Positions 1-38,370 of a DNA stretch of 64,000 nucleotides are shown piece by piece. Positions within the stretch are counted from its first letter, which is position 1, and the number at the start of each line of letters is the position of its first letter. The notes beneath the pieces are model-generated. The model was not told the origin of the DNA and did not search any database. It worked only from the letters and a program-made list of their open reading frames with translations. The DNA comes from Bacteroidota bacterium (lineage in GTDB: Bacteria > Bacteroidota > Bacteroidia > Chitinophagales > Chitinophagaceae), in the NCBI GenBank assembly GCA_013289175.1, contig JABDAN010000010.1:1-64000 (forward strand), read 5' to 3'. Made by a program: the position numbers and the translations under genes.

Positions 1-735
1 ATTCAACCCAATGGGTTACTGGACTGGGCTGGAAATTTCGCCCATATGCTGGGCTATAAGGATGAGACCTTTCATGAGCTTCTGAGATTGTATATGACCA
101 TCCATGCCGATCACGAAGGTGGGAATGTCAGCGCCCATACTACACACCTGGTAGGCTCCGCACTCAGCGACCCTTACCTTAGTTTTGCTGCGGGGATGAA
201 CGGACTGGCCGGACCCCTGCATGGACTGGCCAATCAGGAAGTCATCAAATGGATTCTCGAGATGCGGGAAGAATTGAAAACAGAACTTCCCAGCGGTCAA
301 CAGATTATAGACTACGTTAAAAAAACCTTGAGTGAAGGCAAGGTGGTGCCTGGATACGGGCATGCCGTGCTGCGAAAGACCGATCCCAGGTTTACAGCAC
401 AAATGGAATTTGGAAAAAAACACCTCCCCAATGATTCCCTGGTACAAACAGTCTGGAATATTTATGAGGCTGTGCCACCCGTCCTGCAGTCACTGGGAAA
501 GATTAAAAATCCCTGGCCGAATGTAGACGCCCACAGTGGGGCTCTGCTGGTACACTACGGGATGGTAGAATATGAATTTTACACCGTTTTATTTGGTGTC
601 AGTCGATCTCTGGGCGTACTGGCCAGTCTCTGCTGGGACCGGGCGCTGGGTTATTCCCTGGAAAGACCCAAATCCGTCACCACCGATTCAGTGAAACGAT
701 GGATTGACGGGAAAGAAGATATTTGGGGGGAATAG
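1..735 (+). CDS. gltA: Citrate synthase, C-terminal 244 residues (5' end outside window)
   Basis: Condenses oxaloacetate and acetyl-CoA into citrate in the TCA cycle. The reading frame is open from base 1, so the N-terminal part (about 200 residues) lies to the left. Visible signatures are the active-site histidine region [12 protein letters not shown], the GPLHGLAN motif and the [15 protein letters not shown] block that binds substrate and CoA. The motif style and expected length (about 440 residues) fit the eukaryote-type citrate synthase common in Bacteroidota, not the hexameric enterobacterial type. The next genes on the opposite strand are remnants, one of which is the N-terminus of another citrate synthase of the same type. 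Identification is secure; only the start is unseen. Confidence 0.95.
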
Positions 736-748
736 AAGGCTAGCCCTT

Positions 749-903
749 TTATAGAGCCTGTTGGATATCATCCAGGATATCTTCGGGATGTTCTAGTCCG
801 CATGAAATGCGTATGAGCCCGGGTGTTATATTGACCGCTCTTCGCTCCTCCTCTGTTAACTTCGCATGTGTTGTGCTTGCTGGATGAGAGGCAATGCTGC
901 GGG
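749..903 (-). pseudogene. C-terminal remnant of a MetY/MetB-family PLP enzyme
   Basis: Reading the minus strand up to the TAA at 749-751 gives about 50 residues containing SHPASTTHAKLTEEE and then a GLIRISCGLEHPEDILDDI tail. This is the standard C-terminus of the Cys/Met-metabolism PLP family, closest in style to O-acetylhomoserine sulfhydrylase (HPASTTH block). No start codon, PLP-lysine region or N-terminal domain is present. The upstream boundary falls at about 890-905, where the sequence changes into a citrate synthase N-terminus in another frame. The remnant differs from the intact metB gene at 55539, whose tail reads [10 protein letters not shown], so it is not a copy of that gene. I infer a decayed or recombined gene; an assembly chimera is also possible. 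Confidence 0.75.
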
Positions 904-1107
904 TATCGAATATCCCCGGAAACGAATGCCTTCCTGGGGATCAAGCAAAGAGGTTTCTGTCACAAGTCCCGTCATGCCTCGCATCCCACTGTAGATTTGG
1001 GAAAGTGTTACTTCTCCGATTTTCTTTGAACCGTGGGTTTTAAGAATGTCTTTTATTTCTGCACTGAGACGCTCAGCCTTTATATTGAATCTTTCTTTGA
1101 TGGGCAT
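898..1107 (-). pseudogene. N-terminal remnant of a second citrate synthase
   Basis: The minus-strand frame starts at ATG 1107 with MPIKERF and runs through GEVTLSQIYSGMRGM and LLDPQEGIRFRGYSIP, the hallmark N-terminal block of eukaryote-type citrate synthase. After about 69 homologous residues the similarity stops at 901-903. The frame then reads about 14 unrelated residues to a stop at 856-858, because it has run out of frame into the MetY-like remnant. It faces the C-terminal citrate synthase at 1-735 head to tail in inverted orientation, so it is not simply the same gene. Truncation to under a fifth of the protein means it cannot be active. Its ATG is intact, so a short peptide could still be made. 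Confidence 0.8.
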
Positions 1108-1213
1108 ACCCGGCGTTTAAAGGATGATTTGGTATAAGGTTAAAGTTAACTTATGAAAGTTGTTGGAGCAAATCATTGAATCCGATTATCGAAAATTAAC
1201 GGGCGGTTAATAC

Positions 1214-2305
1214 CTATTTGGGTGCTTTCCAATAAAGGTAAATGGCCACGAAACAGAAAATGAAATTGGGCATCCAGGCAGCCAGGAGGGGAGAAAAATT
1301 TCCCTTGGTGGCAAAGGTCACTGAAAACTTATCCATGATCACAAATAAAGCGGCCATAACCAGGCCCAACGCCAGGAGTAATCCGCTACCGCCCCGGACT
1401 TTTCTGGTCGAAATGATGGCACCGATCATCGTGAGGATAATAACCGAAAAAGGGGACGCATCCCGGTGATACCTTTCCTCTTTATATGTATTCAACCCTT
1501 CAGAACCCCTGATTTCTTCCAGCCCGATGAATTGTTTTAATTCCGGAGTGGTGTATTTGTTTTTCTGATATTCATCCCGCCTCAATTCCTCTGGTTTAAC
1601 ATTGAGGTTGATGTTCATGGAGGGAATCAACCGGGCCGTTTCTTTCAATCCGTTGTTGGTATGTTCGATCACCGTGTTGAGCTGCCAATTTTTTTTCGTG
1701 GTGTCCCAATGAATGGATTCAGCGCGCAGGTTATAATAAATTCTGTTGTTTTTTATTTTTGACAAGAAAAAAGAACCGGCTGTTTTTCTAGCCGTATCAT
1801 AATACCGCAAACCAACATAAGTTTCTGCATCTACTCTTAGATAATAGCTGTTGGAGCGAAACGGATCGGCATTATAGGAACTCCTGGAATCCACATAAGT
1901 CGTTTGAAAATTGGTGCGGATAACTTCAGCTTTTGGAATCCAGTACTGACTGGCATACCAGTACAATCCGGCCAGCAAGATCGCTCCCACCAAAAAGGGA
2001 CGGAGCATCCGGTTATAACGAACTCCGCCAGCCAGAATGGCAATGAATTCGGATTGTCCTGCCATTTTTGAGCCGAAATAAATACAGGCGATGAAGACAA
2101 AAAGGGGAAAGATCATGGACATGATAAAGGGAACAAATCCAATAAAATAATGGGTGACCAGTTCCCAAGTCGTTAACCCCGATTTTACAAAATCATCAGC
2201 CTTTTCACTGGTATCGATTACAACGGCAATCGTCGTAAACGTAAGCATGGTGAATACGAAGGTTGAAAGGAATTTCTTCAATATATACCAGTCCAGTTTC
2301 TTCAT
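1214..2305 (-). CDS. LptF/LptG family permease (lipopolysaccharide export)
   Basis: Inner-membrane permease of the YjgP/YjgQ family that, with LptB ATPase and LptC/LptA, extracts lipopolysaccharide from the inner membrane. The 363 residues show the family layout: membrane segments at about 10-30, 54-78 and 100-121, a periplasmic beta-jellyroll-like domain (about 125-280), then three C-terminal segments up to residue 360. The MSMIFPLFVFIACIYFG stretch in the second helix and the FIAILAGG segment after it are typical. The gene stands alone, divergent from the M1 peptidase at 2413; no lptB or partner permease is adjacent, which is common in Bacteroidota. I cannot tell LptF from LptG with certainty, so no symbol is given. 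Confidence 0.85.
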   Translation of the reverse strand: MKKLDWYILKKFLSTFVFTMLTFTTIAVVIDTSEKADDFVKSGLTTWELVTHYFIGFVPFIMSMIFPLFVFIACIYFGSKMAGQSEFIAILAGGVRYNRMLRPFLVGAILLAGLYWYASQYWIPKAEVIRTNFQTTYVDSRSSYNADPFRSNSYYLRVDAETYVGLRYYDTARKTAGSFFLSKIKNNRIYYNLRAESIHWDTTKKNWQLNTVIEHTNNGLKETARLIPSMNINLNVKPEELRRDEYQKNKYTTPELKQFIGLEEIRGSEGLNTYKEERYHRDASPFSVIILTMIGAIISTRKVRGGSGLLLALGLVMAALFVIMDKFSVTFATKGNFSPLLAAWMPNFIFCFVAIYLYWKAPK

Positions 2306-2383
2306 GGTATTAAAGGCTGCAAATTAGCCTTTCCGCCCAAACCACTTGTCATATTTTATCCATTTTAGTAGCACTTTACCAGT

Positions 2384-2391
2384 TATCTTCG
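2384..2391 (+). promoter_or_regulatory. Candidate -7 promoter element for the M1 peptidase
   Basis: TATCTTCG matches the Bacteroidota -7 consensus TAnnTTTG at 7 of 8 positions and lies 21 bases before the ATG at 2413. The -33 region is T-rich (around 2363-2366) but has no clear TTG, so this rests mainly on the -7 box. Confidence 0.35.
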
Positions 2392-2412
2392 CAGGCTTAA
2401 AATCTTTTTCTG

Positions 2413-20594: not shown

Positions 20595-20703
20595 GAGTCG
20601 AATGATTTATGGGCGTAAAAATAAGGAGATATTTTCATCGGGCACCAGAAGAGTACTATGGCTTTTTGTATATTAACGCCTACAAATCAACCAACCTCTT
20701 TCC

Positions 20704-23700
20704 ATGCGATTGAAAACCCAAATTCTGACACTTGTTGTTTTTTCCATTTTGTTATTTTCCTGCAATAGAAACCTGGTCAAACTGGATTTTACCAATGCCA
20801 AAGATGAAGTAGCCCCGCTGACCAACCTGGTTTTCCGATTCGACAAAACACTCATGGCCGATTCCTTGATTAACCGATGGGATTCCACTAAATATATTTC
20901 CTTTGAACCAGCCATCGCTGGTAAATTTCGATGGGAACATGGCGACGAGTTGGTTTTTTCCCCCTCCCAACCCATGCTTCCGGCTACCCAATACCGGGCA
21001 ACGCTTAACAGCGACATTCTTCAATACACTTCATACAACCATTTTAAAGATGCAAACGACATCCATTTTCATACGCCCTTACTTAAGCTAGAAAATACCA
21101 TCAGCAGCTGGAATCAGGACGAGAATACCAAAAACTATTGGCCTCAACTCGATTTGATGTTTAACTATCCTGTCGATCCATCCGGGTTGAAGGAAAAATT
21201 GAAAATGACCATTGACGACAAACCGGTAGAGTATACTCTTCAAACCCTTTCTGCCTCTTCAACCATTTCTGTCAGACTCGCCAACGTTGCCACGGCCGAC
21301 AAGGACTATGAAGTCAAGCTGCAGTTGGACAAAGGACTGATTCCGGTCGGAGGAAGCAATGGGACCCCGGAGCAGATAGAGGCCAGCGCCATGATTCCCT
21401 CTCCCTTTATTTTACGCATCAACGAAATAGTGGCTGACCCCGAGGGTACAGGTGGGACGATCCGGGTTTCAACCAGCCAGCAAATCAACAGCAGTGATTT
21501 GGCATCCTTCATTCAACTGGAGCCGGCTGTAAAATTCAATACCGAACTGACTGATAATGGTTTTACGATCCACAGCGATGGATTCGATGTAGATAAAACT
21601 TATTTGCTTACTATAAAAAAAGGCTTGCGCGGGAAAATCGGTGGCACCCTGAGCGAGGACTATATCAATAATCTTGCATTCGGAGCGCTGGAGCCGGCCA
21701 TTAGTTTTCAGAACAGCAAAGGGATGTATTTGTCGGGTCAGGGAGAGAAAAATATAGAAGTTCGCATCACCAATGTGGAAAAAGTAAAATTGGTTATTTC
21801 CAAGATATATGAAAACAACCTGCTGGCCGCACAGAAAAACGGCTACTATCCCCAGGAAAAAGAGGGCATCAATAACTATTACGAGGACAACGCTTCATCA
21901 ACTTCCGGAGATGTGATTTATGAACAGGAAGTTGAAACCAGGCTACTTCCAAAATATGGCGGCAGCCGGCTTTTGCACTTGGACATCGAGGATAAGTTAC
22001 CAGAATTCAAAGGGATCTATCATGTCATGATTCATTCAACCAAAGACTATTGGGTACGTGACAGTCGTTTTCTTTCTCTGTCTGATATCGGACTTATTGC
22101 CAAGGAAGGGGCAGACCATCTGGTAGTATTTGCCAACTCAATTCAGACCGCAAAGCCACTCAAAGGCGTCAACCTAATTGCATACGGTGCCAACAATCAA
22201 ATCCTCGGTATGGGTACCAGTGACGAACAGGGTACTGCAACCATATCCTATCAGCGGAGGGAATTTTCCGGTTTCAAACCGGCCATGATCATTGCAAAAA
22301 CAGCCGATGATTTCAATTACCTGAACTTCAGCTCATCGCGTATCAACACTTCGCGCTTTGATGTCGGAGGCAAGACCCTGAATGCAACAGGTCTGGATGC
22401 GTTTATCTATCCAGAAAGGGATATATACCGGCCCGGGGAGAAAATAAACTATTCTGCCATCGTCCGCGACTATGCCTGGAAATCACCAGGAGAGATTCCT
22501 GTAAAATTGAAATTTCTTTTCCCCAATGGAAAAGAAGTAAAAACTTTCCGCAAGACCCTCAATGAGCAGGGTTCTCTGGAAGGAAACATTGATTTGCCCA
22601 TTACTTCGATCACCGGAACCTATTCCCTGGAACTGTATTCTTCCAATGATATATTACTCACGACGCAGCCTTTTCACGTCGAAGAATTTGTACCGGACAG
22701 GATAAAGGTCACGGCTACCCTCAATGCGGCGTTTTATGAACCGGGCGCAACCGCCCAATTGAAAATATCAGCCGTTAATTTTTTTGGGCCACCTGCTGCT
22801 GACAGAAACTATGAATGCGAGATTCAGCTGAAGCAAAAAACTTTCAATCCAAAAAAATACAACAATTACGATTTCAGCCTGACCAATCAAAAGACTTTTA
22901 CCGATAAAGTTACCCGGGAAGGCAAAACCAATGCTTCGGGCGAAGCCAGCGAAAGTTTTACTATAGAAGATATGTACCGAAATATTGGAATGCTCCAGGC
23001 AGACTTCTACAGTACCGTTTTTGATGAAACCGGCAGGCCGGTGAGTCGGTTGACAAGTGCCAACATTTACACACAGTCTGTATACTTTGGTATCGCCGAG
23101 GACGGCAACTGGTTTTACCCCCTCAATCAGCCGGTAGGATTTCATTTGATAGCCTTGAGCAAAGACCAGGCGGTGCTTTCCGCTTCCGCCGAAGTTTCCG
23201 TTATCAAACACGAATACCGGACCATTATCAGCAAAAGCGGAGATTATTTCCGGTACGAGTCTCAAAAGGAAGATAAGCTGATCAGTTCAACGACGGTGAA
23301 GGTAACGGGCGACCAGACATTATTTTCTTATGTTCCGCGCACTTCCGGAGACTATGAATTGCGTGTTGCTATACCTGGCTCGGATACTTATGTAAGTAAA
23401 TCATTTTACAGCTATGGGTCCTGGGGGTCTGATAATTCGTCATTCGAAGTCAACAACGAAGGCCAGGTGGATATCCAGCTGGATAAGTCTTCTTACTACA
23501 ATGGAGAATCGGTCCGTGCATTGTTTAAAGCTCCTTTTGATGGACGCATGTTGGTTACTTTGGAAACAAATAAGCTGATCAGCTATCAATGGGTGGATGT
23601 TGAAAAGCGAACTGCGAGCGTAGAGCTGAAGCTGACGAGCGAAGCGGTCCCCAATGCTTATATAACGGCGACCCTAATCAAGCCACATGGAATGTCAGAT

Positions 23701-26082
23701 ATCCCCTTAACGGTGGCCCACGGTTTTGAAAATCTGACGGTGGAAGACAGGGGTCGAAAAATTCCGGTAGAAATTCTTGCCCGTACAACCGTCCGGTCGC
23801 GGACGCAACAGGAAATTAAAATAAAGGCAGCTCCCAATAGCCTAGTCACCCTTGCAGCGGTGGATAACGGCGTTTTGCAGGTTACTGATTTTAAGACACC
23901 GGATCCCTATAATTATTTTTATGACCGTCGGGCATTGGGTGTTACGGACTATGATCTGTATCCGCTCTTGCTTCCGGAATTGAAGGCTCGTTTAAGCAGT
24001 ACAGGAGGAGATGGCGAAACCGACATGACCAAACGGACCAATCCCATGCCTGCCAAAAGGATTAAAATTCTCTCTTACTGGAGTGGTATTCAAAAGACCG
24101 ACGGGAATGGAGAAGCGACCTTTCAACTGTCCATCCCTCAGTTTTCGGGGGAAGTCAGGCTGATGGCCGTTTCCTATCGAGGCGAACAGTTTGGTTCAGC
24201 CGAATCAAAGATGACGGTTGCCGATCCACTCGTGTTGAGTACAGCACTGCCCCGGTTTCTGAGTCCATCGGATTCAATCCGTATGCCCGTTACCATCACC
24301 AACACCACATCGGCGACCGCCAATGGTTCAGCCATACTGCAAAGCAGCGGAGGCATCCTGGTTGGAGGAAACAAAACCCTTGCCTTCACCATTGCACCCC
24401 ATGGAGAAAAGCGTCTGTATTTTACGGTTTTGGCAGCACCAGTTATAGGAACGGGAAAAATTATGGTGGAGGTGAACGGACCGGGCGGAAAGTTCAGCGA
24501 TACAACCGAAATCGGTATCCGTCCCGCAGCCTCATTGCAAAAGAGTACCGGCAACGGCGCCTTGACCGCACCTGCTGCGCAGACCATTACATTTGACAAC
24601 GCCGACTATATTCCCTCCAGCATCAGCCGACAATTATTCCTTACTCGATTTCCGGGAGCCGGGCTGGGCAAATACCTGGGCGATCTTTTGGAATATCCTT
24701 ATGGATGCACTGAACAAACTGTTTCAGCAGCTTTCCCACAATTGTATTTCGGAGAGTTGTCGGAAGCACTGCATATGGTGAACGGAAACAAAACCACCGC
24801 CAATTACAATGTCCAGGAGGCCATACGGAAAATTAAGATGCGGCAACTGTACAACGGAGCCATCACACTCTGGGATGATGAAAAAACGGCCAACTGGTGG
24901 GCCAGCATCTATGCGGCGCATTTTTTACTCGAGGCAGATAAAGCGGGTTTTGACGTGGACAAAGGACTATTGGAAACCTTGCTGGCTTACATCAATTCGA
25001 GCCTGAAAGAAAGAAAAACCATCAACTATTATTATAACCGGGACCAGGTCAAAAAAATTGTTCCCAAAGAAGTGATTTACGGATTGTATGTCCTGGCCCT
25101 TTCTTCCAAACCCAATACAGCCCTGATGAATTATTATAAAGCAAATCCCTCCTTGCTGAGTCTGGACTGTAAATACTTGCTGGCTGCTGCCTATGCACTG
25201 TCCGGAGATAAGAATAGTTTCCGGCAATTTCTCCCGACACATTTCACGGGAGAAATCGCGAATACGGAAACGGGTGGAAGTTTTTCTTCCGACATCCGGG
25301 ATGAGGCAATGTCCCTGGATGTTTTGCTGGATGCTGATCCTGCAAACCCGCAAGTTTCAGAAATGGCCAAACACGTTTCCGATAAACTAAAAGAACGTAC
25401 CTGGTACAACACACAGGAACTTGTATTTGGATTTTTGTCGCTGGGTAAGATTGCTAAAAGGGAAGGAGTGTCTACGGCGACCGCATCCGTTCTAGTAAAT
25501 GGTAAAAAGATTGCGGATTTTAATGGAACGGACCTGAAATTAAAAGCCGACCAATTAAGTGAAGGCCGGACGGAAATTGTATCGGGGGGAAAAGGAAATC
25601 TATATTATTACTGGGAGGAAGAAGGAATCTCAGCCGGAGGCACGATGAAAGAATCCGACAACTACCTAAAAGTGCGCAAACATTTTTTTGATCGTTACGG
25701 AAATCCCATTGTCGGGAATACTTTCAAACAAAATGAACTGGTGATCGTAGAGATCAGTCTGGAAAAATCCTTTAGCAACGACATTGAGAACGTCGTGATC
25801 ACGGATCTTTTACCGGCTGGTTTTGAAATTGAAAACCCACGGACCAAAGATATTCCGGGTATGGACTGGATAAAGGAGGCCGCCACCCCTACGGCGCTCG
25901 ACGTTCGGGACGACCGGATAAATCTGTTCGTGGATGCCGATGCACTTCGACAGAATTATTATTATGCTGTTCGAGCGGTCTCACCGGGTGTATTTAAAAT
26001 GGGACCCGTGAGCGCCGATGCGATGTACAACGGGGAATATCATTCCTACAATGGTGGGGGAACGATTAAAATTGTGGAATAA
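20704..26082 (+). CDS. Bacterial alpha-2-macroglobulin, thioester type, lipoprotein
   Basis: A 1792-residue periplasmic or surface-anchored protease trap. It starts with a lipoprotein signal (LLFSC, cysteine 20). The N-terminal half contains repeated beta-sandwich (MG) domains, including the DIYRPGEKINYSAIVRD segment typical of the MG2/MG3 region. Residues around 1100-1160 hold a bait-like region and the following RLMAVSYRGEQFG block matches the A2M family. The complement-like thioester domain has CTEQ at 1335-1338 in YPYGCTEQT, with an alpha-barrel after it (TANWWASIYAAHFLLEADKAG). It ends in a receptor-binding-like MG10 domain. In proteobacteria the gene is often beside pbpC; here it stands alone, just upstream of the cytochrome/DUF1501 operon. 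Confidence 0.93.
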   Translation: MRLKTQILTLVVFSILLFSCNRNLVKLDFTNAKDEVAPLTNLVFRFDKTLMADSLINRWDSTKYISFEPAIAGKFRWEHGDELVFSPSQPMLPATQYRATLNSDILQYTSYNHFKDANDIHFHTPLLKLENTISSWNQDENTKNYWPQLDLMFNYPVDPSGLKEKLKMTIDDKPVEYTLQTLSASSTISVRLANVATADKDYEVKLQLDKGLIPVGGSNGTPEQIEASAMIPSPFILRINEIVADPEGTGGTIRVSTSQQINSSDLASFIQLEPAVKFNTELTDNGFTIHSDGFDVDKTYLLTIKKGLRGKIGGTLSEDYINNLAFGALEPAISFQNSKGMYLSGQGEKNIEVRITNVEKVKLVISKIYENNLLAAQKNGYYPQEKEGINNYYEDNASSTSGDVIYEQEVETRLLPKYGGSRLLHLDIEDKLPEFKGIYHVMIHSTKDYWVRDSRFLSLSDIGLIAKEGADHLVVFANSIQTAKPLKGVNLIAYGANNQILGMGTSDEQGTATISYQRREFSGFKPAMIIAKTADDFNYLNFSSSRINTSRFDVGGKTLNATGLDAFIYPERDIYRPGEKINYSAIVRDYAWKSPGEIPVKLKFLFPNGKEVKTFRKTLNEQGSLEGNIDLPITSITGTYSLELYSSNDILLTTQPFHVEEFVPDRIKVTATLNAAFYEPGATAQLKISAVNFFGPPAADRNYECEIQLKQKTFNPKKYNNYDFSLTNQKTFTDKVTREGKTNASGEASESFTIEDMYRNIGMLQADFYSTVFDETGRPVSRLTSANIYTQSVYFGIAEDGNWFYPLNQPVGFHLIALSKDQAVLSASAEVSVIKHEYRTIISKSGDYFRYESQKEDKLISSTTVKVTGDQTLFSYVPRTSGDYELRVAIPGSDTYVSKSFYSYGSWGSDNSSFEVNNEGQVDIQLDKSSYYNGESVRALFKAPFDGRMLVTLETNKLISYQWVDVEKRTASVELKLTSEAVPNAYITATLIKPHGMSDIPLTVAHGFENLTVEDRGRKIPVEILARTTVRSRTQQEIKIKAAPNSLVTLAAVDNGVLQVTDFKTPDPYNYFYDRRALGVTDYDLYPLLLPELKARLSSTGGDGETDMTKRTNPMPAKRIKILSYWSGIQKTDGNGEATFQLSIPQFSGEVRLMAVSYRGEQFGSAESKMTVADPLVLSTALPRFLSPSDSIRMPVTITNTTSATANGSAILQSSGGILVGGNKTLAFTIAPHGEKRLYFTVLAAPVIGTGKIMVEVNGPGGKFSDTTEIGIRPAASLQKSTGNGALTAPAAQTITFDNADYIPSSISRQLFLTRFPGAGLGKYLGDLLEYPYGCTEQTVSAAFPQLYFGELSEALHMVNGNKTTANYNVQEAIRKIKMRQLYNGAITLWDDEKTANWWASIYAAHFLLEADKAGFDVDKGLLETLLAYINSSLKERKTINYYYNRDQVKKIVPKEVIYGLYVLALSSKPNTALMNYYKANPSLLSLDCKYLLAAAYALSGDKNSFRQFLPTHFTGEIANTETGGSFSSDIRDEAMSLDVLLDADPANPQVSEMAKHVSDKLKERTWYNTQELVFGFLSLGKIAKREGVSTATASVLVNGKKIADFNGTDLKLKADQLSEGRTEIVSGGKGNLYYYWEEEGISAGGTMKESDNYLKVRKHFFDRYGNPIVGNTFKQNELVIVEISLEKSFSNDIENVVITDLLPAGFEIENPRTKDIPGMDWIKEAATPTALDVRDDRINLFVDADALRQNYYYAVRAVSPGVFKMGPVSADAMYNGEYHSYNGGGTIKIVE

Positions 26083-26158
26083 AAATAATTCAAGGCAATT
26101 CTTAAGACCAAAACCTTACTGAAAAAAATGTAACTTCAGAGCATATACGGTTGCTTGA

Positions 26159-28930
26159 ATGTTACCTTTTCTATTACATAAGAAATGGTGGGTGCTTGCC
26201 CTTCTCATGGGGATGGCCGTGCTTTTTTTTATATTCAGTGCTCGCAATCAACCGGTTGATTTTAATGCCGAGGTCAAGCCCATCTTCAATAAAAAATGTA
26301 TTACCTGTCACGGGGGTGTACGGCGCAAATCCGGATTTAGCCTGCTTTTTCGTGCCGAAGCGCTGGGACAAACCGAATCCGGAAAACCGGCCATCGTACC
26401 GGGTCATCCCGAAAAAAGTGAGATGATGCGCAGGATCGGTCTTCAGGACCCGGAGGAAAGAATGCCCTATAAACACGAACCGCTTACTAAAGAAGAAATA
26501 TCCATTCTGAAACGTTGGATCAAAGAAGGCGCTAAATGGGGTGATCACTGGGCCTACCTTCCTGTCAAACCAACCGAACCACCCAAACCCAAACCCATTT
26601 TTTTTGGACTGATCACTCCTAAAAAACCAGCCTGGATTAAAAATGATGTCGATTACTTCATCTGGGACAAACTACAGCAGGAAAAAATCCAGCCATCTGA
26701 ACCGGCCGATAAGGCGACCTTGCTGCGTAGGGTAAGTCTGGATATTACGGGTATGCCGCCGGAAGAAAATATCGCAAACGCTTTTCTGACCGATGGCTCC
26801 GACCAGGCCTATGAAAAATTGGTGGATGCGCTGCTCTCGTCTCCGCATTATGGAGAACGGTGGGCAGCTATGTGGATGGATATTGCGCGATATGCCGATA
26901 CAAAAGGGTATGAAAGAGATGGGGATCGAAGTATCTGGAGATACCGGGACTGGCTCATTCAGGCCTTTAATGAAGACCGCGGTTATGACCGGTTCTTAAT
27001 AGACCAGCTGGCTGGTGATCTTTTACCAGATCCATCGGATGATCAATTCATCGCAACCGCTTTTCATCGAAACACCATGACCAACGATGAAGGAGGTACG
27101 GAAAACGAAGAATTCCGGACAGCTGCGGTGCTGGATAGAGTGAACGCGACCTGGGAGGGTCTGATGGGCACCACTTTTTCCTGTGTTCAATGCCATAGTC
27201 ATCCCTACGATCCGTTTACTCACGATGAGTACTACAAATTCATGGCCTTTTTTAATGATACCCGGGATGAGGATTCTTATGCGGATTATCCGCTGCTGCG
27301 CCATTACAGCACACAGGATAGTTTGAGTCTGAATCATGTGGTGAGCTGGATAGGCAAGCATGGATCAAAGGATCAGGCCAAAGAGGTAGCCCTGTTTTTA
27401 AAAACCTGGCAGCCCGCCATCAATTCCCTGGATGCGGATCAATTCCGAAACAGCGAACTGGCCGATACCAAATGGCTTATTTTCCGCAACCATGCCGTAG
27501 CGCGGTTAAAACATGTGGACCTCGACCAGAAAAACCGTTTGATCTTTCGCTATGCAGGATTTGTAAAAGGTGGTGACTGGATCATTCACCTGGATAAACC
27601 CGACGGATTGATTTTAAATAGGATTCGACTTGATACAACCAAAGACTATAACTGGGTGATCCGGCAAACGGACATCCAACCGGCTGTAGGGATCCATGAT
27701 CTGTATTTTACCTATGAAAATCCGCACCTGAAAAAACCGGATGAAAGCGGTTGCCAGTTCGACTGGTTTTATTTTACCCGTTCCCTGGAGGGGAAAAGGG
27801 AGCCTGGTTATGATTCTATTCAAAAGACCTATTGGCGTTTGCTCACTGCTGAAGTGCCAACAACGCCCATTATGATGGACAATCCTGCTGATATGCACCG
27901 CAGTTCCCATGTGTTTGAGCGGGGCAACTGGCTAGTTCAGGGAAAAGAAGTTAAACCCGATGTACCCCACTCGCTGTTGCCCTTACCACCAAAGGCGCCG
28001 AGAAATCGTCTGGGATTGGCCCTTTGGATGACCAGCAAACAAAATCCATTGATCGCCCGCACCCTGGTCAATCGCCTTTGGGAACAGTTGTTCGGTTCGG
28101 GATTGGTAGAAACCCTGGAAGATTTTGGCACCCAAGGCGCTGCTCCGACACATCCCGAATTGCTGGACTGGCTGGCTTGGCAATTCATGAACGAGGATCA
28201 ATGGAGCATCAAAAAACTTCTCAAGGAAATGTTGATGTCAGCCACCTATAGGCAGGATTCCAAAGTTCGCGCTGATTTATTGGAAAAGGATCCCTTCAAC
28301 AAATCATATGCACGGGGTCCCCGGGTGAGGTTATCGGCCGAACAAATTCGTGACCAGTCGCTTATGGTCAGCGGCCTGCTGAGTGAAAGAATGTATGGCC
28401 CCAGTGTGATGCCTTATCAGCCAAAGGGCATTTGGTTATCGCCCTGGAATGGCGAGGATTGGAAAATGAGTGCTCAGGAAAATCAATACCGACGGGCCGT
28501 ATATACCTACTGGAAAAGAACTGCACCTTATCCCTCCATGATAACTTTTGATGGCGTGGCAAGAGAGGTATGCACGGCCCGACGAATCAGAACCAATACG
28601 CCTTTGCAGGCACTGGTCACATTAAATGATTCTACTTACCTGAATGCGGCTAGAGGTTTCGCTTTCGATATGCAAAAAGCTGCCCCGAACGACCTGGCCA
28701 AACAAATCAGCAACGGATATAAAAAGATGATGTATAAAACAATTTCTCCGGAAAAATTGCTCATACTGGAGAAATTGTACAAAGAAGCATACGACCGTTT
28801 TGAAAAAGAAAAGGATAAGACCTGTGAGATCATTGGTGAAATGAATCAATACAACAATCCGGGAACGGCTGCGCTGGTGGTGGTGGCCAATGCGATGTTG
28901 AATCTGGATGAGTGGATCACAAAAAATTAA
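26159..28930 (+). CDS. Planctomycete-type cytochrome c / DUF1549 / DUF1553 protein
   Basis: A 923-residue exported protein. An N-terminal membrane anchor (about 9-28) is followed by a PSCyt1 heme domain with CITCH at residues 47-51. The next part is DUF1549 (PSCyt2, about 150-360; GERWAAMWMDIARYADTKGY) with a second CVQCH at 342-346. A central insert contains GIHDLYFTYENP and CQFDWFYF, which resembles a CBM6 carbohydrate-binding module. The last part is DUF1553 (PSD1, about 635-900; NRLWEQLFGSGLVETLEDFG). The architecture is abundant in Planctomycetes and Verrucomicrobia and occurs in Bacteroidota; its reaction is not established. It is the first gene of a four-gene operon. A -7-like TACGGTTG at 26146 lies just upstream. 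Confidence 0.9.
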   Translation: MLPFLLHKKWWVLALLMGMAVLFFIFSARNQPVDFNAEVKPIFNKKCITCHGGVRRKSGFSLLFRAEALGQTESGKPAIVPGHPEKSEMMRRIGLQDPEERMPYKHEPLTKEEISILKRWIKEGAKWGDHWAYLPVKPTEPPKPKPIFFGLITPKKPAWIKNDVDYFIWDKLQQEKIQPSEPADKATLLRRVSLDITGMPPEENIANAFLTDGSDQAYEKLVDALLSSPHYGERWAAMWMDIARYADTKGYERDGDRSIWRYRDWLIQAFNEDRGYDRFLIDQLAGDLLPDPSDDQFIATAFHRNTMTNDEGGTENEEFRTAAVLDRVNATWEGLMGTTFSCVQCHSHPYDPFTHDEYYKFMAFFNDTRDEDSYADYPLLRHYSTQDSLSLNHVVSWIGKHGSKDQAKEVALFLKTWQPAINSLDADQFRNSELADTKWLIFRNHAVARLKHVDLDQKNRLIFRYAGFVKGGDWIIHLDKPDGLILNRIRLDTTKDYNWVIRQTDIQPAVGIHDLYFTYENPHLKKPDESGCQFDWFYFTRSLEGKREPGYDSIQKTYWRLLTAEVPTTPIMMDNPADMHRSSHVFERGNWLVQGKEVKPDVPHSLLPLPPKAPRNRLGLALWMTSKQNPLIARTLVNRLWEQLFGSGLVETLEDFGTQGAAPTHPELLDWLAWQFMNEDQWSIKKLLKEMLMSATYRQDSKVRADLLEKDPFNKSYARGPRVRLSAEQIRDQSLMVSGLLSERMYGPSVMPYQPKGIWLSPWNGEDWKMSAQENQYRRAVYTYWKRTAPYPSMITFDGVAREVCTARRIRTNTPLQALVTLNDSTYLNAARGFAFDMQKAAPNDLAKQISNGYKKMMYKTISPEKLLILEKLYKEAYDRFEKEKDKTCEIIGEMNQYNNPGTAALVVVANAMLNLDEWITKN

Positions 28931-28947
28931 AGAAACAAACAAGCCGT

Positions 28948-30453
28948 ATGACACAAAAAGAATTGCGGAATCAACAATTGCTTCAGGAGGCAAACGAAAG
29001 AACGGCTCAATTCTTTACCAGAAGGCATTTTTTAAAAGAAAGTGCGATGGGTTTTGGCGCATTGGCCCTCGGCTCTCTGATAGGCGGATGTGGATTTGAT
29101 ACTGCCGGAAGCGTTTCGACCTTTGACCCAGCCCATCCGCTGGCTCCCAAACTGCCGATGTTCCCGGGAAAAGCAAAGTCGGTCATTTATCTCCATATGG
29201 CCGGAGCGCCCTCTCAATTGGAGCTATTCGACTTTAAACCGGATCTGATGAAACTAAATGGCCAGGATTGTCCACAATCCTTGCTGGAAGGAAAACGATT
29301 CGCTTTTATCCGAGGCGTTCCCAAGATGCTGGGACCGCAGGCCAGTTTCAAACAATATGGCCAGTCCCGGGCATGGATATCCGAACTTCTTCCACATTTT
29401 TCAACGATCGTAGATGAGGTAAGTTTTTTAAAAGCCGTGACCACTGATCAGTTCAATCACGCCCCGGCACAATTGCTGATGCACAGCGGCAGCCCGCGAT
29501 TGGGAAGGCCCAGCCTGGGTTCCTGGGTTACGTATGGGTTGGGTTCGGAAAATCAAAACCTGCCGGGATTTGTTGTACTGACTTCCGGCGGTAAATTTCC
29601 GGACGCCGGTAAAAGCGTATGGGGAAGTGGATTTCTGCCTTCCGTATACCAGGGTGTTCAATGTCGCAGTGAAGGCGATCCGGTATTATTTATCAAAGAT
29701 CCTCAGGGCATGGATCGCGATCTGAGAAAGGCATCCATTGATGCGATCAATGCGGTGAATGAGCAGGAATACAGCGAATACCATGATCCAGAAATTTTAT
29801 CCCGAATATCCCAATATGAAATGGCCTACCGGATGCAGATTTCAGTACCCGGCGTGATGAACATAAATGATGAGCCGGATTATATTCATGAAATGTATGG
29901 TACTGAACCAAACAAGGCCTCTCTGGCCAACAATATTCTGCTCGCACGAAAATTGGTCGAAAAGGGCGTACGCTTTGTGCAGTTATTCGACTGGGGATGG
30001 GATAGTCATGGCAGCGATGCAAACCTGGCCATTGATATTGGATTTATTAATAAATGCAGACAGGTCGACAAACCGATGACCGCCCTCATCCTGGATTTGA
30101 AGCAAAGAGGACTGCTCGAGGACACGCTCGTTGTATGGGGTGGAGAATTTGGACGCACCCCGATGCAGGAGAATCGGGAAGGCAAACAGAATCCTTTTAA
30201 AGGAAGGGATCATCATGTGGATGCCTTTACAATCTGGATGGCAGGCGGTGGCATTAAAAAAGGTTTTTGCCATGGCGAAACAGATGAAATCGGTTATAGC
30301 GCCATCAGCGGGAAGGTAACACCCTACGATATTCAAGCGACGATCCTCAATCAACTGGGATTTGACCACGAAAAATTTACTTATCAATTTCAAGGCCGAC
30401 CTTACAGGCTGACGGACGTTCACGGCAAATTGATTGATGAAATCATTGCATGA
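28948..30453 (+). CDS. DUF1501 (sulfatase-like) Tat-exported protein
   Basis: A 501-residue protein of the DUF1501 family, which shares the alkaline phosphatase/sulfatase fold. The N-terminus has a twin-arginine motif TRRHFLKESAMG (arginines 25-26) and a hydrophobic stretch ending in LIGGC, so Tat export with possible lipidation is likely. Characteristic blocks include YLHMAGAPSQLELFDFKP, FDWGWDSHG, LVVWGGEFGRTP and GRDHH, the last supplying likely metal ligands. The ATG at 28948 is preferred to a GTG at 28912 that would overlap the upstream gene and place the Tat motif farther in. DUF1501 genes almost always follow DUF1549/DUF1553 genes, as here (17-base gap). The substrate is unknown. Confidence 0.9.
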   Translation: MTQKELRNQQLLQEANERTAQFFTRRHFLKESAMGFGALALGSLIGGCGFDTAGSVSTFDPAHPLAPKLPMFPGKAKSVIYLHMAGAPSQLELFDFKPDLMKLNGQDCPQSLLEGKRFAFIRGVPKMLGPQASFKQYGQSRAWISELLPHFSTIVDEVSFLKAVTTDQFNHAPAQLLMHSGSPRLGRPSLGSWVTYGLGSENQNLPGFVVLTSGGKFPDAGKSVWGSGFLPSVYQGVQCRSEGDPVLFIKDPQGMDRDLRKASIDAINAVNEQEYSEYHDPEILSRISQYEMAYRMQISVPGVMNINDEPDYIHEMYGTEPNKASLANNILLARKLVEKGVRFVQLFDWGWDSHGSDANLAIDIGFINKCRQVDKPMTALILDLKQRGLLEDTLVVWGGEFGRTPMQENREGKQNPFKGRDHHVDAFTIWMAGGGIKKGFCHGETDEIGYSAISGKVTPYDIQATILNQLGFDHEKFTYQFQGRPYRLTDVHGKLIDEIIA

Positions 30454-30488
30454 GAAAACTTCCAGGAATATATTATTAAAACAATCGC

Positions 30489-31418
30489 TTGAACCGAAGA
30501 AATTTTTTAGAAGTAGGCAGTTCGGCCAGTACCCTATTTATGCTTGCTGCCCTTGATGCCTATTCTTTCACCAAACCATCCTCATCGATCATGAACGGCA
30601 ATTTCGAATTAAAAATCTTGGCCACCAATTGGGGATTCCCCGGTAGCCTCGACGCCTATTGTGCCAAAGTTAAACAGACCGGTTACGACGGTATAGAGAT
30701 TTGGTGGCCAATGGAAAAAAAATCTCAGGATGAATTGTTTGGATTATTAAAAAAATACCAACTGGAAGTAGGTTTCCTCTGTGCGGGTTCCGACGGTAAC
30801 TATCAGAAACATTTTGACCAATTTACCCAGATGATTGATGAAGCCGCCTACCAGACAATTCAGCGTCCATTGTATATCAATTGCCATTCGGGTCGCGACT
30901 ATTTCAGTTTTGAGCAGAATAAGACCTTTATAGATCATACGCGGGAGCTGACTAAAAAAACTGGTTTGATCATTTGTCATGAGACCCATCGATCAAGAAT
31001 ACTTTATTCTGCTCCCGTGGCCCGTTCATATTTTGAAAAAATACCGGATCTGCGAATAACGCTCGATATTTCGCACTGGTGCAACGTGCACGAGTCCCTG
31101 CTGAAGGATCAGCAAGAGACGGTAGATATTGCACTACAAAGAGTTGATCATATACACGCCCGGATAGGGCATCCGGAAGGTCCACAGGTGAATGATCCCC
31201 GTGCGCCTGAGTGGGAAGAGGCGGTAAAATCACATTTGGATTGGTGGGATAAGGTCGTTGATCAAAAAAAGAAAACCGGCCAGCGGTTGACCATCCTGAC
31301 TGAATTTGGTCCACCGTATTATATGCCTGCACTTCCTTATACCCAACAACCCGTAGCAGATCAGTGGGCAATCAATGAGTATATGATGAATCTATTGCGT
31401 AAGCGTTATTTGTCTTAA
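30489..31418 (+). CDS. Tat-signal sugar phosphate isomerase/epimerase-like TIM barrel
   Basis: A 309-residue protein of the xylose isomerase-like TIM-barrel superfamily (AP endonuclease 2 fold). A TTG start gives MNRRNFLEVGSSASTLFMLA, a twin-arginine signal, so the enzyme would act outside the cytoplasm. The barrel begins at about residue 35 (ILATNWGFPGSLDAYCAKVK). Metal ligands typical of the family are plausible in GYDGIEIWWP, ICHETHRSR, LDISHWCNVHE, DHIHARIGHPEGPQ and LTEFGPP. The gene is 35 bases after DUF1501 and 10 before the next gene. The likely role is carbohydrate isomerisation or epimerisation within the operon's pathway; the substrate is unknown. Confidence 0.82.
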   Translation: MNRRNFLEVGSSASTLFMLAALDAYSFTKPSSSIMNGNFELKILATNWGFPGSLDAYCAKVKQTGYDGIEIWWPMEKKSQDELFGLLKKYQLEVGFLCAGSDGNYQKHFDQFTQMIDEAAYQTIQRPLYINCHSGRDYFSFEQNKTFIDHTRELTKKTGLIICHETHRSRILYSAPVARSYFEKIPDLRITLDISHWCNVHESLLKDQQETVDIALQRVDHIHARIGHPEGPQVNDPRAPEWEEAVKSHLDWWDKVVDQKKKTGQRLTILTEFGPPYYMPALPYTQQPVADQWAINEYMMNLLRKRYLS

Positions 31419-31428
31419 AAATCAGCCG

Positions 31429-32847
31429 GTGGTTTTATCCATTACAGAATTCATAGGACACCTGCATCCGGTACTGGTTCACCTTCCCATTGGGATTTTG
31501 CTTTTGGCCTGTCTTTTCCTTTTGTTATCCCAAAAACAAAAGTTTGCCTACCTGCGACCTGTTATTTCCATGATATTGCTGCTGGGTTTCCTTTGCGCTA
31601 TTGCTACCTGTGTGACAGGCTACTTGCTTTCCCTCGCAGGAGAATATGAGGAAGGCCTTGTATCCTTGCATCAATGGTCAGGTATCAGCGTGGCGTTTTT
31701 TTCCGGCTTAACTTACCTATTGCATAGAAAAAACCGGCTGGTCAAATGGCAAATGACCGTTGCTGTCCTACTGGCCATATTGATTCTGACGACAGGACAT
31801 CTGGGTGGGTCCCTGACACACGGGTCAGATTATCTATCCAAACCCCTGCATTTCCATGAAGACACAACAGGCACGGCCAAGATACGAAAACCCATCGCCG
31901 ATATACAACAAGCATGGGTATACGCAGATGTGGTAGCACCCATTTTGGAGAAAAAATGTTATAGTTGCCACAGCGCCACGAAACAAAAGGGAAAACTGCG
32001 TCTGGATCAGGCGGACCTGATTATCAAAGGGGGGAAAGATGGTGAAGTCATTGTTCCTGGTAAGTCAACTGAAAGTATACTCATTAAAAGGATTTTATCA
32101 TCCAGGGAAGAAGAGCACCATATGCCGCCAAAAGAAAAACCACAACTCAGTGAGCAAGAAACTGTGCTATTGCAATGGTGGATAGACCAGGGAGCCGATT
32201 TTCTTAAAAAAGTGAAAGATATACCGCAAACCGAAAAAGTAAAATCGTTGCTGACGGATTTACAAAAAGCGCCTGTAGAGAAAAAAAGTTCTCCGATGCT
32301 TCCCTTACAACCGGTCGAGGAAGCCAATCCCACAGCCATTCAGTTACTAAAAGATAAGGGAATCGTCGTCATACCGGTTGCACAAAACAGCCATTTTCTT
32401 GCAGCCAATTTTGTTGCCGCCACTGATTTTCATGATGCAGACATTCGTCTACTGCTACCGATAAAAAATCAGTTGGTCTGGCTAAAAATAGGTTCTACAC
32501 CCATAACGGATTCAGCCATGATCGCCCTATCCCAATGTACCCAACTTACAGAATTACAATTGGACCATACCTTCATTACCGATAAGGGATTGGCACTTCT
32601 AAAATCGCTGGAAAACCTCCAGTCACTCAACCTGGTGGGTACAAAAATTACTTCTGCGGGCGTTTTGAGTCTCACCTCCCTGAAAAACCTCCGGAATTTA
32701 TATTTATTTCAAACCCAGATCGATAAAAAAGACTGGAACAGTCTCTTAAAAGCCTTCCCCAAAGCCACGCTGGACTCGGGAGGGTATTCCATTCCCTATA
32801 TTAAAACGGATACCCAGGTTGTGAAAGCACCCAAAACCGTCTATTAA
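31429..32847 (+). CDS. DUF2231 membrane domain - cytochrome c - leucine-rich repeat protein
   Basis: A 472-residue fusion. A GTG start gives MVLSITEFIGHLHPVLVHLP, the start of a DUF2231-like four-helix membrane domain (about 10-130; HLHPVLVHLPIG is diagnostic). A PSCyt1-type heme domain follows with CYSCH at 177-181 and the standard KGKLRLDQADLIIKGG and EEHHMPPKEKPQLSEQE blocks. The C-terminal third (about 330-450) has three or four leucine-rich repeats of the bacterial type (LTELQLDHTFITDKGLALL). The membrane domain could pass electrons to or from the operon's soluble hemes; the repeats suggest protein binding. Last gene of the operon, converging with aspS. Confidence 0.85.
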   Translation: MVLSITEFIGHLHPVLVHLPIGILLLACLFLLLSQKQKFAYLRPVISMILLLGFLCAIATCVTGYLLSLAGEYEEGLVSLHQWSGISVAFFSGLTYLLHRKNRLVKWQMTVAVLLAILILTTGHLGGSLTHGSDYLSKPLHFHEDTTGTAKIRKPIADIQQAWVYADVVAPILEKKCYSCHSATKQKGKLRLDQADLIIKGGKDGEVIVPGKSTESILIKRILSSREEEHHMPPKEKPQLSEQETVLLQWWIDQGADFLKKVKDIPQTEKVKSLLTDLQKAPVEKKSSPMLPLQPVEEANPTAIQLLKDKGIVVIPVAQNSHFLAANFVAATDFHDADIRLLLPIKNQLVWLKIGSTPITDSAMIALSQCTQLTELQLDHTFITDKGLALLKSLENLQSLNLVGTKITSAGVLSLTSLKNLRNLYLFQTQIDKKDWNSLLKAFPKATLDSGGYSIPYIKTDTQVVKAPKTVY

Positions 32848-32864
32848 TCCCAACGGGAGTTTGC

Positions 32865-34694
32865 CTATTTCTCTGTGCGAATTTCGATGAATAGTTCCCT
32901 GAGCTGCTTTTCATCGATGGTAGAAGGAGCATCCAGCATGACATCCCGTCCGCTGTTATTTTTAGGGAATGCAATAAAATCCCGAATGCTTTCGCTACCG
33001 CCCAGAATGGCGCAAAGGCGGTCGAATCCAAAAGCAATGCCGCCATGGGGTGGTGCACCGTATTCAAAAGCTCCCAGGAGGAATCCGAATTTGTGGTTGG
33101 CTTCCTCACGGGTCATGCCCAGGGCATCAAACATTTTTTCCTGCAATTCCCGTTGATATATCCGAATCGATCCGCCGCCAATTTCATTTCCATTCAATAC
33201 CATATCATAGGCATTGGCCTTGATATTGGCATAGGGATGTTCAAGATATAATTCAGGATTTGAAATGACCGGATCATGGTTGATCATTGTGCTGATCTGA
33301 TCTGGCTTGGGTGCTGTAAATGGATGGTGACGGGCAACCCAACGGTTGTCTTCCTCGCTGTATTCAAACAAAGGGAAATCCAATACCCACAATAGTGTAT
33401 ACTCATCCTTCTTGCGAAGACCCAATCTTTCGCCCAGTTCCAACCTGAGGTCGCTGATAGCTTTTCTGGTTTTCTCTTCCCTTCCCGCCAAAATTAGTAT
33501 GACATCTCCTTTCTGCGATTGACAATAACTGGCAATCGAGAGTAATTTTTCTTCAGAATAAAATTTATCAACACTGCTCTTGATGGTTCCATCTTCATTA
33601 TACCTTATGTAGACAAGGCCTTGCATGCCAATTTGCGGGCGTTTAACCCAGTCCGTTAGTTCGTCAAACTGTTTTCTGGTCCAGGTAGCACCACCAGGAA
33701 CGGAAATAGCCAGCACGGTTTCGGCATTGTCAAATACTGGAAATCCCGCATTGGCAATTATCCAGCCTCCTGCTTCTACTGCTCCCTTTCGTTTGATGGG
33801 AGATTTTAAATTGGCAATCTTCATGTCAAACCGGATATCGGGTTTATCATTTCCATAAACCCACATCGCGTCTTCCCAGGTCATCCTTTCAATTTCTCCC
33901 TTGTATTCTATTCCTTTGACCTCTTTAAAAATATATTTAATCAACCCCTCAAACATCTCCAGGATGTCGTTTTGTTCTATAAAACTCATTTCACAGTCTA
34001 TCTGGGTAAATTCCGGCTGCCGATCTGCCCGCAGGTCCTCATCCCTGAAACACTTGACAACCTGGTAGTACCGGTCGTATCCGCTGACCATCAGCAACTG
34101 CTTAAAAGTCTGCGGACTTTGCGGAAGTGCATAGAATTGTCCCGCATTCATACGGGAAGGAACCACAAAATCACGGGCACCTTCCGGTGTGGACTTAATC
34201 AAAAAAGGTGTTTCAATGTCGATGAAATGCTTCTGGTGTAAGTAGTTCCGGGCGGCCCTGTTTACGGCATATCGCAATTCAATATTCTTTTTTACTACCT
34301 GACGCCTTAGATCCAGGTAGCGGAACTTCATACGAAGATCGTCTCCACCGTCTGTATCGTCCTGGATGGTAAATGGCGGCGTGACGGATTTGTTGAGGAT
34401 TACAATTTTTCCCACTTTGATCTCAATTTCCCCCGTTGGGATTTGGAGGTTCTTGCTGGACCTTTCTGAAACAATACCAGTAGCCTGGATCACGTATTCA
34501 CGACCCAGTGGACTGCCAGCTAGACTGGAATGCTGGGTTTCATCCAACAGCAACTGAGTGATGCCATAGCGATCCCGAAGGTCAACAAAAGTGATACTCC
34601 CGAACTTCCTCAGGGTTTGAACCCAGCCGGCCAGGGTTACTTCCTGGTTTAGGTTGGCCAGTCCTAACTCGCCACAGGTATGCGTCCTGAACAT
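32865..34694 (-). CDS. aspS: Aspartyl-tRNA synthetase
   Basis: Charges tRNA-Asp. The 609-residue class II synthetase has an N-terminal OB-fold anticodon domain ([19 protein letters not shown] to about 110), motif 2 ([19 protein letters not shown]), the bacterial insertion (GAD) domain (about 290-410) and motif 3 ([16 protein letters not shown]). The length and the insertion domain identify the bacterial type. A promoter match TTTG-N17-TACCTTTG lies upstream at 34715-34743. In genomes with GatCAB (gatC is at 16925) AspRS may be non-discriminating, but that cannot be decided here. Confidence 0.96.
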
Positions 34695-36009: not shown

Positions 36010-38370
36010 ATGTTCATCAACTATCTAAAAATCGCCTTCAGAAATCTCCGCAGACACAAAGCTTTTTCCATCATTAATATTGCGGGCCTCGGTATAGGAA
36101 TGACCTGCAGCATTTTTATCATGCTCTGGGTAAGGGATGAATTGAGTTATGATAATTTTCACCCCAAAGGCGATCAGATCTTTCGATTGACCTGCAATGC
36201 AGGAGATTTTAAAGCGGCTGTAACCCCCTCGGGCATGGCAGCTGGCCTCGAGTCGGAGATGCCGGTTATCAAGGCTGCTGTGAGAATCTCCAAAAATACC
36301 GGTGTCTTGCTGGAAGTCGACAACCATAAATTCCAGGAGAAAAGACTGATGTACGCCGATTCTAATTTTCTGGACGTATTCAATTTCCCCTTGATTAAAG
36401 GAAATTCCAAAACAGCCCTGCAGCAACCGGATGGGATTTTAATAACGGAGGCCATGGCAATGAAATATTTCGGAAATAAAGATCCACTGGGCAAAGTCAT
36501 CCGGATGAACAACAGCGACAACTATAAGGTAACCGGTGTCCTTGCCAATATACCTTCCAATTCACATTTACAATTTGATTTCATCATTTCTATGATCGCC
36601 ATAGAAAGTTCGAATTTGGCCAATCGCCCCTGGGATAGTTTCAACTATTATACCTACTTGATGCTGGATAAAAATGCCAATACCTCACCTTCTGGATTGG
36701 CCATCCTGAACGCCGAAATAGATAAAATTTATAAAAAACATATTCCCGAGATTAAAATCGATTTCCATTTACAACCCATCAAGAGTATTCACCTCAGTCC
36801 GGGTCTTCAAATTGATCAGCCCGGGTTGGGAAACCGACAATATGTAAACATTTTTTTTCTTGTTGCCATATTTATCCTGATCGTAGCCTGTATCAATTTT
36901 ATGAACCTGGCCACTGCACGTTCTGCCAGAAGGGCAAAGGAAGTGGGTTTGCGCAAAGTGGTGGGAGCTGAGCGTTACCAGATCATTGGCCAGTTTCTGG
37001 GTGAATCCATTTTTATCTCGGTCCTTTCGTTCCTCATGGCGATCTTACTGGTCTGGGCCCTGCTACCCGCATTTAACAAGATGGCCGATAAATCCTTCAG
37101 CCTCCACCATGTCAACCCCGTTTTGTTGACCACTCTGTTGGGGCTTGCCCTGGTGACGGGATTGGTTTCCGGTATTTATCCAGCCATTTACCTTTCTGGA
37201 TTTAAGCCCGCAAAAGTCCTGAAGGGGAAATTAAAATCGATGGGTGGAAACCTGGTCTTCCGAAATACGCTGGTTGTCGTGCAGTTTGTTGTCTCCATCG
37301 TGTTGCTGGTGGGAACCGCCGTTGTATACCGGCAACTGAATTTTATAAAAAATATGAACCTGGGATATGAACAAAAGAACCTGATTTATGTCCGGATGAC
37401 AGGCGAGCTATGGAATAAAATCAGTGCCATCAAGACTGAATTAAAACAACATCCGCAAACCAGCGACTATTCCATGGTTTCTGATCTGCCCACCACCCTG
37501 GTTACCGGAACCATCAACATAGACTGGGAAGGAAAAGACCCCAAGTCACAGATCGTATTTCCTTCCATGGATGTAGATGAAAATTTTTTCAATGTATTTC
37601 AAATGAAGATGCTCAGTGGACGGGGGTTTTCACCAGCTTTCAAGGCAGACAGTTCGAATTATGTGGTGAATGAAACTTCAGCCAAGATCATGGGAATGAG
37701 CGTGAAAAATATTGTGGGTAAACCCTTGAGTTTTGGGAAAACAAAAGGAACCATTATTGGGGTCGTAAAAAACTTTAATTTCAAATCCATCCATCAATCG
37801 ATAGAGCCGCTGATTATCCGCTTGAACAAATACGGCGGATATATTTTTGTAAGATGCAAGGTGGCCAATACCGAAGAAACGATCAAGCAATTGCAAAAGG
37901 TTTGCGAAGACCTGAACCCGGGTTATCCTTTTGAATATGCTTTCCTGGATGAGGATCTCTCCAATCTTTATAAAGGTGAACAAAGAATCGGCAGCTTGTT
38001 CAACGTTTTTGCTATTCTGGCCATTTTTATTTCCTGCCTGGGATTATATGGATTGTCTGCCTTCATCGCAGAACAGCGAACCAAAGAAATCGGCGTACGT
38101 AAAGTACTGGGCGCTTCCGTCGTTCATATCGTTTACCTGCTCTCCTCCAACTTCACCCGGGTGATCCTGATTGCGATCGTCATCGCTGTGCCCCTGTCCT
38201 GGTATATGATCCACCAATGGCTGCAGGGCTTCGCCTATCATATAGATATTGGATGGGGTATTTTTGCGGTCGGAGCTTTTACAGCACTTTTTATCGCGTG
38301 GTGTACAGTAAGTTTTGAATCGTTTAAATCGGCCGTTTCCAATCCGGTAAAAAGTCTTCGGTCAGAATAA
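36010..38370 (+). CDS. MacB/FtsX-type ABC transporter permease
   Basis: A 786-residue permease with two MacB-like halves. The first helix (about 21-42, IINIAGLGIGMTCSIFIML) and periplasmic domain (about 45-275) are followed by three helices (about 282-300, 335-360, 378-400) with LATARSARRAKEVGLRKVVG between them. Then comes a second set: helix about 425-445, another periplasmic domain, and three helices near 670-780 with SAFIAEQRTKEIGVRKVLGA. The repeated RxKEVGxRKVxGA motif is the FtsX coupling region. Members in Bacteroidota occur in antimicrobial peptide or efflux systems. No ATPase is adjacent; the MacB-type ATPase at 17250 is a conceivable partner. Confidence 0.9.
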   Translation: MFINYLKIAFRNLRRHKAFSIINIAGLGIGMTCSIFIMLWVRDELSYDNFHPKGDQIFRLTCNAGDFKAAVTPSGMAAGLESEMPVIKAAVRISKNTGVLLEVDNHKFQEKRLMYADSNFLDVFNFPLIKGNSKTALQQPDGILITEAMAMKYFGNKDPLGKVIRMNNSDNYKVTGVLANIPSNSHLQFDFIISMIAIESSNLANRPWDSFNYYTYLMLDKNANTSPSGLAILNAEIDKIYKKHIPEIKIDFHLQPIKSIHLSPGLQIDQPGLGNRQYVNIFFLVAIFILIVACINFMNLATARSARRAKEVGLRKVVGAERYQIIGQFLGESIFISVLSFLMAILLVWALLPAFNKMADKSFSLHHVNPVLLTTLLGLALVTGLVSGIYPAIYLSGFKPAKVLKGKLKSMGGNLVFRNTLVVVQFVVSIVLLVGTAVVYRQLNFIKNMNLGYEQKNLIYVRMTGELWNKISAIKTELKQHPQTSDYSMVSDLPTTLVTGTINIDWEGKDPKSQIVFPSMDVDENFFNVFQMKMLSGRGFSPAFKADSSNYVVNETSAKIMGMSVKNIVGKPLSFGKTKGTIIGVVKNFNFKSIHQSIEPLIIRLNKYGGYIFVRCKVANTEETIKQLQKVCEDLNPGYPFEYAFLDEDLSNLYKGEQRIGSLFNVFAILAIFISCLGLYGLSAFIAEQRTKEIGVRKVLGASVVHIVYLLSSNFTRVILIAIVIAVPLSWYMIHQWLQGFAYHIDIGWGIFAVGAFTALFIAWCTVSFESFKSAVSNPVKSLRSE

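Follow-up and report, generated by a model that had tools for sequence, protein, structure and literature searches.

The outermost part of contig C10 (~1-908) is very probably an artefact of sequencing or assembly: an inverted chimera built from one otherwise ordinary locus. The window, the whole stretch of DNA analysed here, covers bases 1-64000 of this 64,123-base contig, which belongs to a draft assembly (G000) of 130 contigs that is 80% complete. A preliminary description had reported two truncated genes in it, the head of a citrate synthase (CS) and a MetY-like tail, joined out of frame. This fused-gene feature is most likely an artefact of an ordinary locus and not a real feature.

Gene pieces at the contig end

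Window base 1 is base 1 of the contig, so the gene pieces sit at the contig end. The outermost piece (1-735, plus strand) is cut by the contig start and encodes the C-terminal 244 residues of CS (residues 197-440 in the numbering of the close relative G017, with which it shares 91% identity). This CS body matches PF00285 (142-357, E 1.2e-64) and scores 386 bits with NF007128, above the cut-off of 344, and 370 bits with TIGR01793, below the cut-off of 619.75. The N-terminal 69 residues of the same gene are found at 901-1107 on the minus strand, in native orientation behind an ORF (1214-2305, minus strand) that we take to be an LptG/YjgP-YjgQ-type permease gene, the same-strand neighbour upstream of CS in relatives. 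In a profile search, the ORF containing the CS head (856-1107) matched TIGR01793 at positions 4-80 (E 1.4e-21) and NF007128 at positions 2-72; Pfam alone gave no match for this ORF at E up to 1. The head aligns with residues 1-71 of the 440-residue G017 CS at 86% identity and with the four closest relatives at 87-88%. These alignments show head and body to be pieces of a single gene that complement each other without overlap, lie on opposite strands and leave 127 residues missing between them. The intact G017 CS scores above both the NF007128 and the TIGR01793 cut-offs, and no full-length CS match above either curated cut-off was obtained in the window, where the gene is split in two. Searching plasmids with the CS body returned 178 records, every one below 60% identity.

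The CS body ends 13 bases from the stop codon (TAA) of a convergent gene piece at 749-907 on the minus strand. It holds the C-terminal 52 residues of a probable O-succinylhomoserine sulfhydrylase-type PLP enzyme, 49 of which match PF01053 positions 332-380 (E 1.3e-14), and it shares 87% identity with residues 333-386 of its G017 counterpart. The earlier assignment to the sulfhydrylase PLP family stands, but 'MetY-like' calls for correction: the tail alone cannot separate MetY from MetZ (56.9 bits with TIGR01326, 56.7 bits with TIGR01325), and the best models for the full-length G017 gene are MetZ-type (PRK08133, 493 bits, cut-off 522; TIGR01325, 475 bits, cut-off 510; both below cut-off), with a lower score for the MetY-type TIGR01326 (374 bits). 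There is no full-length O-succinylhomoserine sulfhydrylase match above cut-off, given that the window has the last 52 residues only, with ~330 residues missing from the tip, and that the intact G017 relative also falls below.

The two minus-strand fragments meet at an inversion junction at 900-908, where alignments to the native locus end (907/908) and start (900/902) on opposite strands. The codon registers are one base apart, with CS codon 69 at 903-901 and sulfhydrylase codons at 904-902 and 901-899. Bases 908-900 fit either parent at the codon level, and the crossover can therefore be placed no finer than 900-908. The reading frame that crosses the join is out of register, meets a stop after 83 codons and so gives no fusion protein. 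Hence the preliminary description was right about a CS N-terminus of ~69 residues on the minus strand (1107-901; supported by TIGR01793, NF007128 and the G017 CS), a sulfhydrylase-type C-terminus of ~50 residues running to a TAA at 749 (907-749, 52 residues; PF01053 and the G017 gene) and a frame change between them. Two points escaped it: the plus strand at 1-735 encodes the C-terminal 244 residues of the same CS, and the window begins at a contig end. A repeat search of window 1-2400 found no long repeat at the junction. The G+C content is 0.501 for the CS body and 0.487 for the sulfhydrylase tail, both in the flipped tip, 0.440 for the CS head, 0.433 for the LptG gene and 0.461 for the whole window.

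Native locus and extent of the flip

Two sets of loci were compared with the window. The relative loci are the best 30 from a 58-genome search, of which one is the window's own, leaving 29; the named loci are the best 80 of 567 obtained by scanning a genome collection and overlap with the relative loci. CS head and body share a strand in 29/29 relative loci and in 79 of the best 80 of 567 named loci, the 80th of which begins inside CS. An LptG-like gene is located upstream of CS on the same strand in 27 of the relative loci and 68 of these best 80 named loci; for the remaining named loci it was not found in 11, some where the contig ends, and is on the opposite strand in one. The latter is Flavisolibacter ginsengisoli (L114, 4144-5226).

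The sulfhydrylase tail converges on the CS 3' end in 15/29 relative loci (1.5 kb flanks) and in 11 of the best 80 of 567 named loci (flanks of up to 6 kb), and a non-convergent orientation was seen in none of these 15 and 11 loci. All four closest relatives (G017, G019, G005 and G007) have the convergent sulfhydrylase, with 5-620 bases between the genes compared with 13 in the window. Their native order is LptG, then CS on the same strand, then the sulfhydrylase facing CS. Both CS and the sulfhydrylase are full-length in G017, G007 and G005, and the G019 sulfhydrylase is interrupted by unknown bases.

Against G007 contig C35, all 18 listed alignment blocks (at least 120 bases, E 1e-10) from 902 to 63999 share one orientation, and 16 of them are in order; the two out-of-order blocks are 128 and 197 bases long, at 36841 and 38008. 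Only 1-735 and 765-907 align in reverse orientation, and some stretches of the window are without any aligned block. The picture is the same against G017 contig C2, with one orientation for the 12/12 blocks from 902 on (11 in order, one short block out of order) and reverse orientation for 1-734 and 750-908. The sole strand switch seen is at 900-908, and the flipped part runs to the contig end. Based on a 381-base gap taken from relatives and on the window's own pieces, the joined segments are natively ~1.3 kb apart. The contig ends 381 bases before the second breakpoint, and the contig end can therefore not separate a fold-back from a true inversion.

Further inside the window, 26159-32847 carries four plus-strand ORFs, two with CxxCH motifs, that are absent at the corresponding place in G007 and G017. 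We assume that the CxxCH motifs are of the haem type and that one ORF of the block is DUF1501-like and one sugar-isomerase-like. The flanks of the block are ~30 bases apart in G007 C35, and the block looks like a lineage-specific insertion. A 1,792-residue ORF at 20704-26082 has a middle part (~21705-25588) without a G007 C35 counterpart, the ORF ends being ~30 bases apart there. For G017 C2 there is no aligned block for window 20668-32892, and ~1.9 kb separates the block that ends at 20667 from the one that begins at 32893.

Origin of the join

For an in-vitro inverted chimera, a DNA strand would leave CS at about codon 69 and continue on the opposite strand from about sulfhydrylase codon 333, ~1.3 kb away. 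The tip would then read CS head, sulfhydrylase tail and CS body backwards, to the contig end. Template switching would have produced such a join, with whole-genome amplification or library PCR as the most plausible step, and low coverage at the contig end would have let it enter the assembly. Among several in-vitro routes, multiple displacement amplification (MDA) would be the likeliest. The CS middle (127 residues) and the ~330 absent sulfhydrylase residues, N-terminus included, were not found in the G000 assembly, as one would expect had the true continuation been lost where the contig breaks off. The preliminary description had advised looking for complete copies of both genes elsewhere in the genome. 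A search with the G017 CS and a Pfam family search of the assembly gave no second CS copy or CS fragment in G000, and an assembly search for the sulfhydrylase gave only distant paralogues at 35-45% identity; a second copy of either gene was thus rejected as the source of the fragments.

Some results weigh against this reading. We surveyed 42 tips of contigs C1-C21 against 2.0 Mb of G017. Any alignment was obtained for 30 tips and 13 were judgeable by a criterion set post hoc (on a single G017 contig, at least 500 bases aligned within the outer 2 kb and 1,500 within 8 kb). The window tip alone of these 13 switched strand, with 0/12 among the other judgeable tips. No further flipped contig ends were found, which weakens the specific MDA reading. 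There were also no duplicated or inverted contig ends at 95% identity or more among the C1-C21 tips and the window. Judged by the relatives' codons, the microhomology at the junction is 0 to 9 bases long; position 907 of the window disagrees with the CS codons of all four relatives, and position 904 with those of three of the four. In a simulation of random inverted joins within the G017 locus, 0.06% shared at least 7 bases. Microhomology was dropped as an argument for a chimera, given that the relatives' codons leave its length at 0 to 9 and that the native breakpoint bases of G000 are lacking.

It is unlikely that the organism or a sub-population carries a real ~1.3 kb inversion that has its breakpoints within CS and the sulfhydrylase and disrupts both genes. 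The sequence of one of its junctions would look identical, the two sides share their closest relatives, and the lack of inverted tips at the 12 other judgeable tips is in its favour. However, the single CS copy found in G000 would be lost to it, and a CS match is present in 54 of the 58 genomes and in all 38 that are at least 90% complete and no more than 5% contaminated. Searches of the assembly did not recover the CS middle or the sulfhydrylase N-terminus, the two sequences expected on either side of the reciprocal junction. The inversion is absent from the 29 relative loci and from the best 80 of 567 named loci, and its position, right at the end of a contig, would be a coincidence. That it is a sub-population inversion, maintained as an on-off variant that switches off CS and the sulfhydrylase together in some cells of a Chitinophagaceae-like bacterium, is highly improbable.

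We also consider it very doubtful that two different organisms were joined by a binning or assembly error across species or strains. The G+C content of the tip is somewhat higher (0.501, 0.487) than that of the CS head and LptG (0.440, 0.433), and a mix of two close strains would give an identical picture. However, the same relatives are closest on both sides (against G017, 91% for the CS body, 88% for the CS head and 90% for the sulfhydrylase tail), and the two sides make complementary, non-overlapping parts of one CS gene. Of the two origins proposed in the preliminary description, a chimeric assembly is favoured, and a deletion or recombination that fused CS and the sulfhydrylase into one locus can practically be dismissed: although the fragments abut on the minus strand within ~9 bases, one native locus supplied both, as CS head and 3' neighbour, the CS body lies 13 bases away from the sulfhydrylase stop on the plus strand and forms with it the native convergent pair in inverted form, a deletion by itself cannot change strands, and the joined frame is out of register with its stop after 83 codons.

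Implications and comparison with known systems

Caution is warranted, given that an inverted chimera at a contig tip can mimic a gene fusion or the loss of a core TCA-cycle gene. A look at the strand of each gene piece, and at whether the window reaches a contig end, settles the geometry quickly. On present evidence, G000 should not be scored as being without citrate synthase.

The native Chitinophagaceae-type locus, with LptG, a CS of the NF007128/TIGR01793 type and a convergent sulfhydrylase, matches all window pieces at 1-2305. Compared with this locus, the window is without 127 CS and ~330 sulfhydrylase residues, and its tip is flipped. The closest named relative among the matches listed is JABDDT010000002.1, from the MAG 'BWMinHeated_Nextera45'. 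Judging by its name, this MAG probably belongs to the Harvard Forest MDA study, which we take to be that of Alteio et al. 2020. The available part of that paper (PMC7065516) describes Harvard Forest soil mini-metagenomes made by MDA and Nextera XT.

MDA chimeras themselves are described in the accessible portion of Lasken and Stockwell 2007 (PMC1855051), where 406 of 475 (85%) are inverted, an inversion with an intervening deletion is the dominant form, and the number of chimeras declines with distance under 10 kb. The inverted chimeras are explained there by a displaced 3' end that re-primes on a nearby strand. MDA-type inverted chimeras are characterised by short complementarity at the junction, 2-21 nt in more than 70% of cases; for the window, the relatives' codons allow 0 to 9 bases. 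The tip resembles the MDA inverted chimeras as described in that portion of PMC1855051: two segments are joined inverted relative to the genome (1-908 alone is flipped against G007 and G017, with the native order inferred from relatives), the second, inverted segment comes from less than 10 kb away (~1.3 kb), the intervening sequence is lost and the junction is sharp.
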